DNA of 47,147 nt from Phycisphaerales bacterium (lineage in GTDB: Bacteria; Planctomycetota; Phycisphaerae; UBA1845; G020352895). Each line of letters starts with the position of its first letter. Position 1 is the first letter of the stretch. The position numbers were made by a program, and so were the translations under genes. Under the pieces are notes generated by a model. The model had not been told where the DNA came from and did no database searches. It saw only the letters and a program-made list of their open reading frames with translations. The stretch lies in the NCBI GenBank assembly GCA_020352895.1, contig CP070685.1:1730773-1777919 (forward strand), given 5' to 3'. This document shows positions 29,879 through 41,328 of this stretch, piece by piece.

Positions 29879-30219
29879 CCCTCGCCAGTACGACTCAGTT
29901 CGGCGCGAGCGTCAGATAACCACCACCTATGCTGTGCGCGGGGAGCATCCGACTCTTCTCAAGTGAAGTCCAGGTCGCCTACCGCTACCCTCGGCAACAC
30001 TCATCGAGTTCGATCGTAGAGCGATGCCGGCTCTGTCGAAGGGCTCGTAGTACTGTCTGGCCCGTTCCCGCTGGGCAGGACCAAAGGAGGCCGACACGCT
30101 TCTCGAAAGGCCGCGCCAATTAAAGGCCGCGACGCAGGGCAGGACCCGCGTCGCGGCTTAAGGTTGACGTTAACACTTAGGCGGAACGAATCCGCTGCCC
30201 TTCCTAATCGCTCCTCCGG
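29879..30219. other. Convergent intergenic region between accA and the dockerin protein gene
   Basis: A 341-bp gap where two genes end facing each other. Apart from the hairpin at 30126-30157, listed separately, I see no supported gene, tRNA or repeat. Confidence 0.5.
30126..30157. terminator. Bidirectional hairpin between convergent genes
   Basis: A perfect 10-bp inverted repeat, GCCGCGACGC (30126-30135) and GCGTCGCGGC (30148-30157). Inside it GGG and CCC can pair further. A-rich and T-containing flanks (AAAGG before, TTAAGG after) are weak T-tracts, so it is a hairpin-type terminator candidate rather than a canonical one. Confidence 0.5.
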
Positions 30220-35966: not shown

Positions 35967-36479
35967 ATGATTAGGCCATTGAGCACGGAAAGCCTGCTCC
36001 TGTGGGGTGTCCTGGGGGCGGCTGTCGGCGGCTGCGCGGACACGCAGGAGGATCTGCAAGTTTACCTGTTCGGATCAGGAGGTATGGAATCTCTTTTGGC
36101 GGAAGAGAGCGCTGTTATCGAGCAGTTCAATGAACAAGTCAATAAGGACCCGGAATCTGAGGAGCGGGCCAAGACAGTGGCCGGCTTGCTGCGGAGGGAC
36201 ATTCTCCCGGCGTATAACGCGGTACTGGAACGCATGCGGAGGCTGGAGATCCGGAACAAGAAAATCCGGCGGCTGCACGAGGAATACCTGGAGATCACGG
36301 CCGGCCAGAAAGAGACCTTCGAGGAGTTGCTGGCGCTGCTGGAGGCGGAGGAGATCGGCTCGGTGGTGAGGGTCAATCTGCACCTTGCCAAGCTTCGCAA
36401 CCGCCGCACGGACTGGCGTCAGACCCTTCGACAGATGTGCGCCGACTACGAGGTAGCCCGGCCTGATATCGGGGAGTGA
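35967..36479 (+). CDS. Predicted coiled-coil lipoprotein of unknown function
   Basis: A 170-residue predicted lipoprotein. Its N-terminus (MIRPLSTESLLLWGVLGAAV) ends in a lipobox-like AVGGC with the modifiable Cys23. The mature part is charged and helical, with heptad-like Leu/Glu/Arg patterns (about 60-130), so a coiled coil is likely. No family is recognised. A longer frame begins at 35775 inside the protease gene; the ATG at 35967 is preferred because it creates the lipoprotein signal, although only a weak GGGGCAGCAGG lies upstream. It follows the matrixin-like gene by 95 bp on the same strand. Confidence 0.7.
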   Translation: MIRPLSTESLLLWGVLGAAVGGCADTQEDLQVYLFGSGGMESLLAEESAVIEQFNEQVNKDPESEERAKTVAGLLRRDILPAYNAVLERMRRLEIRNKKIRRLHEEYLEITAGQKETFEELLALLEAEEIGSVVRVNLHLAKLRNRRTDWRQTLRQMCADYEVARPDIGE

Positions 36480-36523
36480 CGGCGTCCCCGGGCGGCCGAA
36501 CGGCAGGGTGGGGGTCGGTCGGG

Positions 36524-36563
36524 TTGAGCACATTTTTCGCACTTTTTTTCTGGTTTAATAAAG
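36524..36563 (+). promoter_or_regulatory. AT-rich promoter-like segment before the basic protein gene
   Basis: In a GC-rich surrounding, this segment has T-runs (CATTTTT, CTTTTTTTC) ending in TTTAATAA. TTGAGC (36524-36529) and TAATAA (36556-36561) are too far apart (26 bp) for a standard sigma-70 promoter, so the exact boxes are unclear. Its position about 80 bp before the 36641 start makes a promoter role plausible. Confidence 0.3.
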
Positions 36564-36640
36564 CCGCGTGTGCTGCATGCCGATGTCCGGGCATCGTTGG
36601 GAATACTGGGACTATTGCGTTCAAGTAAGATGGAGACCAT

Positions 36641-37114
36641 ATGATGCCCATGAATTACACTCGACGCCGCACGTACAAGCGTCGGACCACCAACTACAGG
36701 AAGACCAATTGGCCTTCTTATCAGAAGAATCGCTCCAATCCCAAAATGCGGAGCGGCGTGAACTGGCAGTACGGTCCCGTTCGGACCAACCTGCAGAACA
36801 AGATCAATGCGTATCGCACGCTGTATGCGCAGTGCAATGTAACGGGCCCGTATAAGCCGAGCCCGACCACAATCAACAAATTCGCGAACTACGTGAACAA
36901 GGGCTACATGCTGCACAAGATCAGCGGCACCAAGATTGCCAAGTGGGACAAGAACCACAACCCGTCCTGGACGGTCAACTGGGCCACCAAGTGCCTGAAG
37001 GCCAAGTACGGGGCGGCCATCAAAGCCCTGTTCCCCACGGGCAACGGGCGCACCTATATGGTCGCCACCAGCCCGACCTGGAAGGGCAAACCGTTCAAGT
37101 TCCCCACGCGCTAG
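36641..37114 (+). CDS. Extremely basic 157-residue protein of unknown family
   Basis: I do not recognise this protein. It has about 31 Lys/Arg and only one acidic residue (an Asp in AKWDKNH), plus about 12 Tyr, 6 Trp and many Asn. The first 40 residues are rich in Arg and Lys (RRRTYKRRTTNYRK), and there is no signal peptide or membrane helix. Such composition suggests nucleic-acid binding or assembly with a polyanion, but nothing proves it. GGAG lies 5 nt before the ATG at 36641. An AT-rich stretch precedes it and a strong intrinsic terminator follows, so it is a single-gene transcript. Codons favour AAC, AAG and TAC, compatible with high expression. Confidence 0.85.
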   Translation: MMPMNYTRRRTYKRRTTNYRKTNWPSYQKNRSNPKMRSGVNWQYGPVRTNLQNKINAYRTLYAQCNVTGPYKPSPTTINKFANYVNKGYMLHKISGTKIAKWDKNHNPSWTVNWATKCLKAKYGAAIKALFPTGNGRTYMVATSPTWKGKPFKFPTR

Positions 37115-37195
37115 GCGCCACGACAGCCGCCACCAACAGCGGCCAGTTGGGTTTCCCTTTCCTCGCCAAGACTCTCTGAACGCAATACTCCATCG

Positions 37196-37224
37196 GGCCC
37201 GTCGGTGCGGCGGGCCTTTGTTTT
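37196..37224 (+). terminator. Intrinsic terminator of the basic protein gene
   Basis: A 9-bp stem (GGCCCGTCG at 37196-37204, CGGCGGGCC at 37208-37216, one T-G wobble) with a three-base loop is followed by TTTGTTTT (37217-37224). It is the best canonical rho-independent terminator in the window and ends about 110 nt after the stop of the 36641 gene. Confidence 0.85.
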
Positions 37225-37298
37225 GCGCCTTGCGGCCTAAGTGAAGCTGCGTCTTGGCTCCGGCGAAGCACGGTGTGGGCGGGTACAATTGAAGTGGC

Positions 37299-38261
37299 AT
37301 GGAGTCGACGAGCGCGAGCGTGCCGGGGGCGCCGGACTGGGAGCAGATCGGCGAGGAGATCTGCTGCCCGCTCTGCGAGTATGACCTTCACATGCTGACG
37401 ACGCCGCGCTGCCCCGAGTGCGGCTACCGCTTCGAGTGGGCCGAACTTCTTGATCCCGCGCGGCGGATACACCCATACCTGTTCGAACACCACCCCGAAG
37501 CCAACCTGCGTTCCTTTCGGCGGACGCTGTTGAACGGCCTGCGGCCGCGACGCTTCTGGACATCACTGCACCCTGCCCAGCCGTCCAGCGCTCGTCGGCT
37601 GGTCCTGTACTGGTGCGTCGTGGCGTTGATCTACACGGTGCCGATCGCGGCGGAATTGACTGCCGGCTTCGTCAGCACGCTTGGGCCTCTTCAGGCCAAC
37701 CGGGCGTGGGTCGTGGCGTTTTACAAAACAGCGCGCGGAAAGGATTCTTTCGGGGCGGAAGTAAAGAGATTCGGCTCCATAGAGGCTTACCTCGACTACT
37801 ACTGGCCCATGCCGAACTCACCTGCAACGCTATGGAAGCACTTACGGTACACCCGGATCCTGGCCGAAATGACCTCGTATCTTCTTTTTCCTTTGCTGTA
37901 TGCGTGGTTGACGTTTCTATCCCTTCTGTTATTCGGCCTCTCCATGCGGAGGGCACGAGTCAGAAGGGTGCACGTGCTACGATGCGTGGTGTACAGTACA
38001 GATGTACTCGTTTGGACAGGTCTGTGCGTTCTGCTGGGCGCGGTCATCAGCCGGCTCTACCTCGGCACATCGGTCATTGAAGGGTGGGGCCTCAAGGGGT
38101 GTCTGGCATTCGCCGTCGTGATGGCCGTCGCGTCAATCTACCGGCTGTACGTGGCTTATCGGCACTACTTGCGGTTCGACCATCCCCTGGCGACGGTACT
38201 GGTCTCTCAAGTCATCGTTTACCTGGTGGGAGCCAACTTGATCGCGCCGCAGTTGCTGTAA
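37299..38261 (+). CDS. Zinc-ribbon multi-spanning membrane protein of unknown function
   Basis: A 320-residue protein with an N-terminal zinc ribbon: CPLC (about 23-26) and CPEC (about 38-41), each giving two cysteine ligands. A cytoplasmic linker is followed by about five membrane helices (near 103-125, 190-215, 233-253, 265-283, 298-316). Such zinc-ribbon plus membrane proteins are common in planctomycetes and have no assigned function. A TACAAT at 37284-37289 lies only 9 nt before the ATG; if it is a -10 box the transcript would be nearly leaderless, but there is no good -35 and no clear Shine-Dalgarno. It starts after the terminator of the preceding gene. Confidence 0.83.
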   Translation: MESTSASVPGAPDWEQIGEEICCPLCEYDLHMLTTPRCPECGYRFEWAELLDPARRIHPYLFEHHPEANLRSFRRTLLNGLRPRRFWTSLHPAQPSSARRLVLYWCVVALIYTVPIAAELTAGFVSTLGPLQANRAWVVAFYKTARGKDSFGAEVKRFGSIEAYLDYYWPMPNSPATLWKHLRYTRILAEMTSYLLFPLLYAWLTFLSLLLFGLSMRRARVRRVHVLRCVVYSTDVLVWTGLCVLLGAVISRLYLGTSVIEGWGLKGCLAFAVVMAVASIYRLYVAYRHYLRFDHPLATVLVSQVIVYLVGANLIAPQLL

Positions 38262-38271
38262 TGTGCACCAA

Positions 38272-38450
38272 CAGAGTGCCGCCCCGCCGCCCACGCAGTT
38301 GTAGACCACGCCGAACCCGCCGAAGAAACCCTGGTTGCCAAAGAGGCCGGGGACGGGGCGTCCGCCCACCTGCCGGGCGATGTCGTCATATCGCCGCCGG
38401 GCGTCATTCTTGGAGAATGGCATATAACCTGGTCTGCGCCGAGGCGGCGT
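38272..38450 (-). pseudogene. Fragment of a zinc-type alcohol dehydrogenase gene, frameshifted
   Basis: On the minus strand this segment encodes, in two different frames, the same residues as positions about 281-337 of the dehydrogenase at 39970. One frame gives RRLGADQVICHSPRM (matching RKLGADHVIRHAARM); the other gives RRRYDDIARQVGGRPVPGLF and GNQGFFGGFGVVYNC. The switch is explained by one missing base next to the RM codons when the two DNA stretches are aligned. No start or stop matches the intact gene and similarity fades at both ends. It is a decayed internal fragment of a paralogue, not a gene. Confidence 0.8.
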
Positions 38451-38601
38451 GGACGGTATCTGGTGCTCAAATGCAGGCAGCCTCGTCATAGAGTCCGCCC
38501 TCGCTCGAAACGGAGCCGGCGTGGAGGTAGAATCGTGGCCCCGGAAGCGGCGAATGGCGAAGCCCTGGTAGATAGGAGATGTCGGTCGAGAAGAGCAAGA
38601 G

Positions 38602-39585
38602 ATGCCTGTCGCAGAGATCGTGCCCATGAGCAGACCGGGGCTCGAAACGTTCCACCAGACAAGTCGGAAGCTGGACTTCATAGGCCCCCTAGAGTCTTTG
38701 TTGAACGAGTTCCGCCGTGGGAACATCGCGGACAGGGATCGCGTCCAGGAAGAGTCGGCGATCAAATCTCACCTCGGAGAGCACCGCGAGGCATGGGACC
38801 TCGTGTTTCCAACATTTCCCGAATGCCCCTGGAAGCGCCGCACGATGACCTGGGAACGCCACCGGGGGCGGCGAGACGTCTACCTGAGGAATCTCGTCGT
38901 CACCCACGTACCGCAGCACGAGACTGAAAATCGCCTCATCATCAATCCCGCCGCCGTGGAGGGCAGACATGCCAGATGGCTGGCGCATGAGCTGCCCGCC
39001 TATGAGGTCGTCGGTACTGATATTGACCCTCGGTGGAACCGCCTTTATCGATTCGTGGTCTTCTGGAAGTACCACAAACAGAAGAACTACCGATTCGTGC
39101 GGGAGAGCATTTTTGAGCCGGATCTGGAGCGACACCCGGCAGCCGTCACGTTCTTTGGCGCCTGTGGTTCCGTGACGGACGGATGCATGGACTACGCCAT
39201 TGCCGTGAATGCATCCTTTCTGATCTGCAGGTCCTGCTGCCATGACAACATCGGGGGTAATACGAAGATCGTGAGGCGACCGGGCCGCCCGATCAACGAT
39301 TTCTTCGCATGGAAGAACTACTGGTACGCGAGAATCAAGAAGAAACGGAAGGGCTTCTATTTCGCGGACCGCTACCTCAAGGACGCCTACCCGAGAAGCA
39401 AGGCGGCACGGAGAATCATGGACTCCGACACCATCATCGCCGTCGCCCAGAATGCGCCGGAGAGTGACATTTGCAGAAGCGTGATTGACCTCGACCGGTG
39501 CCTGTTCCTGCAAGAGAACGGCTACGATGTCATGTATCGCGAGGAGCTCTTCTTCGCTCACAAACGGCGCGAAGCCACCGGTTGA
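38602..39585 (+). CDS. Methyltransferase-like protein with HACG/CC-type motifs
   Basis: A 327-residue protein. Residues 136-143 (VVGTDIDP) fit the strand with an acidic residue that binds SAM ribose. Residues 184-195 (FFGACGSVTDGC) followed by SCCHD (211-215) resemble the 'HACGdxTD ... CCY' pattern of the Methyltransf_32-like class, some of whose members methylate RNA. A canonical GxGxG motif I is not obvious, so activity is uncertain. The start could be 38602 or the ATG at 38626; neither has a strong ribosome-binding site. It lies between a dehydrogenase fragment and a WD40 remnant, in a stretch that seems to have been rearranged. Confidence 0.7.
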   Translation: MPVAEIVPMSRPGLETFHQTSRKLDFIGPLESLLNEFRRGNIADRDRVQEESAIKSHLGEHREAWDLVFPTFPECPWKRRTMTWERHRGRRDVYLRNLVVTHVPQHETENRLIINPAAVEGRHARWLAHELPAYEVVGTDIDPRWNRLYRFVVFWKYHKQKNYRFVRESIFEPDLERHPAAVTFFGACGSVTDGCMDYAIAVNASFLICRSCCHDNIGGNTKIVRRPGRPINDFFAWKNYWYARIKKKRKGFYFADRYLKDAYPRSKAARRIMDSDTIIAVAQNAPESDICRSVIDLDRCLFLQENGYDVMYREELFFAHKRREATG

Positions 39586-39969: not shown

Positions 39970-41214
39970 CTAGGTCCGATTGGGGTCGAGCAAGGCCTTT
40001 AGGAAGGGCGGGGTGGGCGGGTGGACCAGGTCGCGGAGGGCGGCGCGGTACTCGCTGAGGGGGTAGGTGCGCGTGGGGAAGGCGGCCGGGTCGAAGGCGC
40101 CTCTTTCGATCAACTCGAAGAGCACCCGATAAGTGTGCAGGCGACGGCCGTCGTACTCCTCGATCTGCCGGCCGTTGCAGCCGATGACATTCAGTTCGGC
40201 GAACCACAAGGGGGTGCTGTCGAACACGCAGATGGAACCTGTCCCCAGGATGACCAGCGTGCCGCGGGCCCGAGTGAACTTGGCGGCGTCGGTAAGGGCC
40301 GCCCCACCACCGGCGCAACTGTAGACGGTGTCGAATCCGCCGAAGAGACCCTGATTGCCGAACAGGCCGGGCACCCGGCGCCCGCCGACGTAGCCGGCGA
40401 TGTCGTCGTAGCGCCGGCGCGAAGGCATCCTTGCCGCATGACGGATGACATGGTCGGCACCCAGTTTCCGGGCCAACTCCTCCTGAAACGCGGTGTACAC
40501 CAGTGCGGTGACCTCGGCACGACACCTGAGAGCCCGCAGGGCGGCGATGGTGCCGAGGGCGATGATGCCCCCGCCCTGCACCAGAGCGTGGTGGTTATCG
40601 GCCGGGCGGTGTCGCAGCACGCCGTGGAGTGAACAGGCCAGCGGATCGGTCAGGACGGCCTGTTCGTCGGGCAGTGAGTCGGGCACGCGATGCAGTTGCC
40701 AGGAGTGGGCCACGAATCGCTCACCCCAGCTCCCGCCCGTGAAGTTGTTGTATCCGGTCATGTAAGCCGGCGGGAGGGTGCCGCGGTGCAGGTTTTCGCA
40801 CAGCGTGAAGTTGCCGGCCGCGCACGGTGCGCAGGATGGATCAATCTCACGAGCAGCGCACGACAGCGAGGGCTCGATCACCACGCGATCCCCGGGCTTG
40901 TAGTCGGTGACGGCACGGCCCACCTCGTCGATGACGGCTACGCACTCGTGGCCCAGGCCATACGGCATGGCGGCCAAGCTCTGGAGGAACGACGCCGGGT
41001 GGGCGCGCAGGAAGATGGCCGCCAGATCGGTGCCGCAGATGCCACCGAGAATGGTGCGCAGGCGTACCCAGTGAGCGGTGGGCAACTCGGGCGCCGGAAC
41101 TTCGGCCAGTCGCAGCCCCGAAATATGAGACCAGTACGTGCCCGGCCAGAGCAGACCGAGCATCTTGCATGCCAGATACCGCACCACAGTGGATTTGAAG
41201 GTGACTGCTTTCAA
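39970..41214 (-). CDS. Zinc-binding dehydrogenase, medium-chain (MDR) superfamily
   Basis: An NAD(P)-dependent alcohol/polyol-dehydrogenase-like protein; the substrate is unknown. Numbering here is on the longest frame (start 41307). Catalytic-zinc residues are in GICGTD (Cys91) and GHE (His120, Glu121). The structural-zinc lobe has Cys150, Cys159, Cys162 and Cys170, and the nucleotide-binding turn is VQGGGIIALG (243-252). The frame opens at TTG 41307, but the MDR N-terminus (KAVTFKSTV) starts at a TTG at 41212-41214, which I prefer; the ATG at 41271 is an alternative with no ribosome-binding site. It follows the PQQ/TPR protein gene closely and may be cotranscribed. A decayed copy of part of this gene lies at 38272-38450. 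Confidence 0.82.
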   Translation of the reverse strand: MKAVTFKSTVVRYLACKMLGLLWPGTYWSHISGLRLAEVPAPELPTAHWVRLRTILGGICGTDLAAIFLRAHPASFLQSLAAMPYGLGHECVAVIDEVGRAVTDYKPGDRVVIEPSLSCAAREIDPSCAPCAAGNFTLCENLHRGTLPPAYMTGYNNFTGGSWGERFVAHSWQLHRVPDSLPDEQAVLTDPLACSLHGVLRHRPADNHHALVQGGGIIALGTIAALRALRCRAEVTALVYTAFQEELARKLGADHVIRHAARMPSRRRYDDIAGYVGGRRVPGLFGNQGLFGGFDTVYSCAGGGAALTDAAKFTRARGTLVILGTGSICVFDSTPLWFAELNVIGCNGRQIEEYDGRRLHTYRVLFELIERGAFDPAAFPTRTYPLSEYRAALRDLVHPPTPPFLKALLDPNRT

Positions 41215-41328
41215 ATGGCTTTCGCTGATCCTATGGCCGTAGGGCGAGGCGTCGGCCGCGCTGGCCGGCATGAGTGAGGACGATAACAGAGACCAACGGT
41301 GGGTCAAGCAGGAACGTAGCGGGCCCGA

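Follow-up and report, generated by a model that had tools for sequence, protein, structure and literature searches.

A nearly acid-free, single-copy protein family of one planctomycete order lies behind a predicted sigma-28-type flagellar promoter

What might a bacterium do with a protein of 157 residues that is extremely basic, almost devoid of acidic residues, and without a recognized family? This question was raised by a gene in the window, the whole 47,147-nucleotide stretch of Phycisphaerales bacterium contig CP070685.1 that was analyzed here. As shown in Table 1, the gene is flanked by a promoter-like element, a ribosome-binding site, and a terminator. A preliminary description of this DNA had counted about 31 Lys/Arg and one acidic residue, and the protein indeed contains 31 Lys/Arg, one Asp, and no Glu, with a pI of 10.8 and 22 Phe/Trp/Tyr. 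Its Asp plus Glu content is 0.6%, versus a mean of 11.1% in the neighboring proteins (those of at least 300 aa; n = 161, sd 3.3, minimum 2.6%). No signal peptide is visible, and the ribosome-binding site is a good one, both as described before; GGAG lies 6–9 nt 5′ of the start codon, and nearly every relative likewise has a GGAG-type site ahead of its start. With ATG as the second codon too, and with Met-Pro at the start of many relatives, the true start may be 36644 instead of 36641. A 284-aa open reading frame at 36446–37300 (minus strand) runs antisense to the gene, as similar ones do in relatives, and looks like a by-product of codon composition.

Table 1. Features of the basic-protein gene and its surroundings (positions within the window)
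Feature	Position	Strand	Description	Basis
Predicted sigma-28 (FliA)-type promoter	36559..36584	+	TAAAG (-35), N16, CCGAT (-10)	conserved element
Ribosome-binding site region	36626..36640	+	GGAG inside AGATGGAGACCAT	sequence; relatives
Acid-free basic protein gene	36641..37114	+	157 aa, ATG start, TAG stop	ORF
Variable basic low-complexity N-terminal tail	36641..36760	+	residues 1-40, predicted disordered	pLDDT mostly 43-56
Conserved folded domain	36761..37111	+	residues 41-157	model, alignments A1, A3, A4
Predicted secondary structure of the domain			helix 42-65, helix 75-86, strand 90-95, helix 96-102, helix 112-126, strands 127-132 and 138-143
Intrinsic terminator	37195..37217	+	10 bp stem, 8 GC, loop 3, then TTGTTTT

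Searched as a single sequence, the protein matched 29 of 61 related genomes. Profile A1, built from 17 sequences, detected a homologue in 75 of the 114 genomes of the order, exactly one in each and never two. The protein family is found in nearly all members of the taxonomic families f4 and f8, and also in f1, to which the window belongs, and in one of three f2 members. No homologue was found by the profile search in f3, f5, f6, or f7 genomes; nearly all relatives are MAGs, so that such absences are less certain than the presences, and the searches scored a limited number of first-look candidates in each genome. In a class sample of 397 genomes, all 65 profile matches fell within the same order, and in a phylum sample of 392 genomes the profile matched the window's own genome only. 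The named relatives are MAGs of Phycisphaerae/Planctomycetota. Homologues share 25–37% identity and align across the whole domain, indicating that the gene annotation is real. The gene, then, belongs to a well-supported, undescribed single-copy family limited to one order.

Comparison of the family with Pfam, NCBIfam, PHROGs, and PDB sequences gave no credible match, in line with the earlier statement that no family is recognized. DUF5113 was rejected as an identity, having been matched at an E value of 0.0025, below its cut-off, by 1 member of 17; other known families appeared as one-off matches in Pfam and chance matches in NCBIfam. Pfam held no match among histone-like families, HctA/HctB included, and neither HMMs nor folds related the protein to HU/IHF or another nucleoid-associated family. 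Ribosomal protein families and ribosome chains in the PDB did not match it either, and no account of such a protein turned up in the literature searched. A match to a known ribosomal or phage family had been named in advance as evidence against the preliminary description; it was looked for, and none was found. Viruses often encode small, very basic proteins, and a lineage-restricted protein of this kind could have come from a phage or mobile element, for example as a packaging or capsid-associated protein. This origin is highly improbable, however, given one copy per genome in 75 genomes, a conserved host-type promoter, and the lack of any match in phages, plasmids, viral contigs, PHROGs, and BFVD.

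The gene appears to stand alone. Its neighbors differ between taxonomic families (an NfeD-like protein, a solute-binding protein, an ECF sigma factor plus kinase, a transporter), and none is shared across them, so that a function deduced from operon neighbors was rejected. Strong hairpins comparable to the one at 37195–37217 occur within 220 nt 3′ of the gene in most relatives. Stand-alone transcription, as first proposed, is thus supported by the lack of a conserved neighbor and by the terminator in most relatives. That terminator had been called the strongest in the window: it does combine stem and T tract best, but by stem length it comes second to a hairpin at 30157–30126 (minus strand), which has 13 pairs and a poor T tract. 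The gene lies outside both flagellar and ribosomal gene clusters. Its codon usage is shifted only slightly towards that of flagellin, a weak hint of high expression. A zinc-dependent dehydrogenase and a partial copy of it lie downstream in the window (38133–38765 and 39970–41307, both minus strand), and the same dehydrogenase is found just downstream of the basic-protein gene in L012, L014, and L015 of genus g8.

The upstream sequence was more informative. An AT-rich segment had been noted there and is present, but it runs into a promoter element that had gone unrecognized (36559–36584; G000:C1:1767331-1767356 in its own genome). A sigma-70 scan found no promoter at the gene. Among non-redundant upstream regions of the family, T[AC]AA-N17-CCGA[TC] occurred in 48 of 55, versus 0.08 expected, a figure that understates chance for this set because the motif was spotted by eye and counted afterwards. 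The remaining 7 of the 55 regions carry near matches in the same place, and the element usually ends about 57 nt before the start of the gene. To obtain the expected counts here and below, each region was resampled by a simple first-order procedure. A motif scan of six genomes matched fliM and fliN of G007 (both named by inspection), and fliM was picked as an independent test. Across several families, 23 of 28 genomes carry T[AC]AA[GC]-N16/17-CCGATA ahead of fliM, versus 0.03 expected, a count obtained after N16 only had given 6 of 28 and the spacing had been widened to 15–18. Most fliM copies have a spacing one nucleotide longer than that of the basic-protein family. Furthermore, TAAAG-N16-[ACT]CGA[AT] was found before 9 of 29 flagellin genes, versus 0.19 expected. 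These elements match the known sigma-28 consensus, TAAA-N15-GCCGATAA. With the element ahead of fliM and a close variant ahead of flagellin genes, the element can be read with good support from these sequences as the sigma-28 (FliA)-type flagellar promoter of the order.

Similar elements were seen at other genes. TMAAG-N16-CCGATA precedes ExeA-like AAA ATPase genes at L111 (G000:C1:3394651) and L135 (G479:C1:2040875), which are possible further members of the regulon, and CTCAAG-N16-CCGATA precedes a glycosyltransferase family 2 gene in L127 (G466) and L146 (G017). Between promoter and ribosome-binding site, several f8 members (e.g., L053, L043, and L184) have a small 5′ UTR hairpin with GGGA frequently at its loop (for example, GTCGGGANNACGAC); the 5′ UTRs of other groups of the protein family share ACGAACAGC or GTCACGTCA. 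The hairpin and the shared stretches could act as sites of translational control, whether of the CsrA type or another.

FliA scored over its cut-off in 105 of the 114 genomes of the order, as did FlhA in 105. The window's own genome, G000, encodes two FliA-type sigma factors (C1:2170379-2171047 and C1:1810689-1811357) that are 44% identical to each other, and a second, lower-scoring FliA-type factor is apparent in many genomes of the order. In G466, FliA adjoins genes assigned by inspection as flhA, flhF, and flhG. FliA itself would be the presumed reader of the promoter of the basic-protein gene. An ECF sigma factor was set aside as the reader because the element precedes fliM across the order. 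An ECF sigma gene does lie directly upstream of the basic-protein gene in four f8 genomes (L009, L011, L013, and L019), preceded in three of them by a serine/threonine kinase gene.

A promoter class common to fliM raises the prospect that the protein itself belongs directly to the flagellar machine or regulates it, through the motor or through sigma activity as FlgM does, with its positive charge incidental. This is quite unlikely. The protein matches neither FlgM nor another flagellar family in Pfam or NCBIfam and has no flagellar domain, and, unlike fliM and the flagellin genes, its gene lies apart from the flagellar clusters. Moreover, f5 and f7 possess flagella and FliA and lack the protein family, whereas the apparently non-flagellated G498 keeps it. 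In this 98% complete genome, no match to FliA, FlhA, FliP, or flagellin was found, and yet the gene and its promoter element are both intact (L043/L071/L181). Unless the MAG misses those genes, G498 agrees with neither a flagellar role nor a strict dependence on FliA. Three explanations offer themselves: recent loss of the flagella, a gap in the MAG where those genes would be, or the reading of the element by a different sigma factor.

The protein consists of an N-terminal tail followed by a conserved domain some 120 aa long. The tail is basic, rich in Ser/Thr/Asn/Gly/Arg, and 5–59 aa long across relatives; in some members (L014 and L019) it measures only about 5–15 aa, and in L014 it is nearly absent, which speaks against conservation of a long N-terminal export signal. 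Within the domain, G88, G124, I127, K128, and F152 are invariant across A1. Acid depletion is common to all members (0–5 Asp plus Glu in 130–184 aa), and every member examined has a domain net charge of about +11 to +18 per 100 aa. The folded domain itself thus carries positive charge, which makes the nucleic-acid or polyanion binding suggested by the preliminary description a plausible prediction.

The profile search and structure prediction proposed in that description yielded, respectively, the conserved family above and a confident domain model. AlphaFold gave the domain of the window protein a pLDDT mostly of 83–93 by block, and that of relative L069 a pLDDT of 93.4 and a pTM of 0.84. Neither model had a significant Foldseek match in the PDB, nor did the window-protein model have one in the viral library BFVD. 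The domain is therefore confidently predicted to adopt a fold matching no solved structure. The order of its helices and strands resembles the H1-S1-H2-H3-S2-S3 order of a winged helix. A winged helix, KH, or RRM fold, to which weak Foldseek hits also pointed, was nevertheless rejected: Foldseek never gave an E value <0.1 in either library, and query-normalized TM-scores stayed <0.35 even with the model of pLDDT 93. It is this lack of a structural match that argues against the winged helix.

Membership in a flagellar regulon fits a flagellum-linked or secreted protein equally well. The strongest rival to a cytoplasmic role is that the protein leaves the cell through the type III apparatus of the flagellum and works outside, for instance as a basic protein that associates with the filament, sticks to surfaces, or binds polysaccharide. 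Type III signals are usually disordered, rich in Ser/Thr/Asn/Arg, and without acidic residues; such an N-terminus is found here, together with a flagellar sigma-type promoter, and some members are Cys-rich, with up to 10 Cys. Cys number is not conserved among members, however, and the depletion of acidic residues spans the folded domain as well as the tail. The rival is weakened further by the tails of about 5–15 aa in some members and by the retention of the gene in G498 without FlhA, FliP, or flagellin. On balance, export is a serious but unlikely explanation.

Flagellar-type control, the missing signal peptide, the nearly acid-free domain, and the positive tail together point instead to a cytoplasmic polyanion binder. 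In the reading that we tentatively favor, at a little under even confidence, FliA would switch on the gene as a late gene of the flagellar regulon. Its product would be small and cytoplasmic, combining a compact, strongly positive domain with a basic disordered tail, and would coat or condense a polyanion in the motile (dispersal) cell, most likely chromosomal DNA. A polyanionic partner is expected because the folded domain has almost no acidic residues, and this partner is presumably nucleic acid met in the cytoplasm, where the protein would stay. It might instead be RNA or the ribosome, the protein then being a motile-cell factor such as a lineage-specific ribosome-associated or translation-silencing protein, whose size, charge, and strict single copy it resembles. 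This seems rather improbable, since sister families that have complete flagellar sets lack the protein, and the protein's gene is located outside ribosomal clusters behind a flagellar promoter. Ribosomal proteins also usually keep acidic residues, unlike this nearly acid-free protein.

DNA is favored as the target by analogy with the chlamydial histone homologue HctB (Hc2), a low-complexity, Lys/Arg/Ala-rich protein whose gene is transcribed at a developmental transition. Sigma-28 of Chlamydia trachomatis binds two promoters only, those of hctB and tsp, and hctB transcription is sigma-28-dependent (PMC12282069). The likeness extends to a small, extremely basic product without a signal peptide, a single gene, a PVC-group bacterium, and a sigma-28-type promoter. 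The two proteins have no sequence match, so that this is analogy and not homology, and the basic protein differs from HctB in its folded alpha/beta domain of about 120 aa. With HU/IHF and other nucleoid-associated proteins it shares the size range, basic character, and single gene; it differs in lacking HMM or structural similarity, in having almost no acidic residues, and in being lineage-restricted. Searches of Pfam, NCBIfam, PHROGs, and the PDB and with Foldseek related the protein to no DNA-binding protein, either by sequence or by fold. By analogy, the protein would be directed at DNA, and it is probably nucleoid-associated. The bolder version, a motile-cell chromatin protein of unseen fold that came under flagellar sigma control as an independent counterpart of sigma-28-driven HctB, is doubtful.

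The single-copy, order-restricted family and its sigma-28-type promoter nonetheless change the likely functional context of the gene. The confident model without a PDB match makes the domain a good target for structure determination, and the flagellar regulon of these uncultured bacteria can be read with the promoter consensus deduced here. Planctomycetes have condensed nucleoids and alternate between motile and sessile cells; to our knowledge, little has been settled as to which proteins compact their DNA or at what stage. The nucleoid of Gemmata, for one, is condensed (PMC3440768). If the bolder version is true, flagellum building and chromosome compaction would be switched on together, and an order-specific core protein under a flagellar promoter offers a gene with which to ask whether the nucleoid state follows the motile phase.
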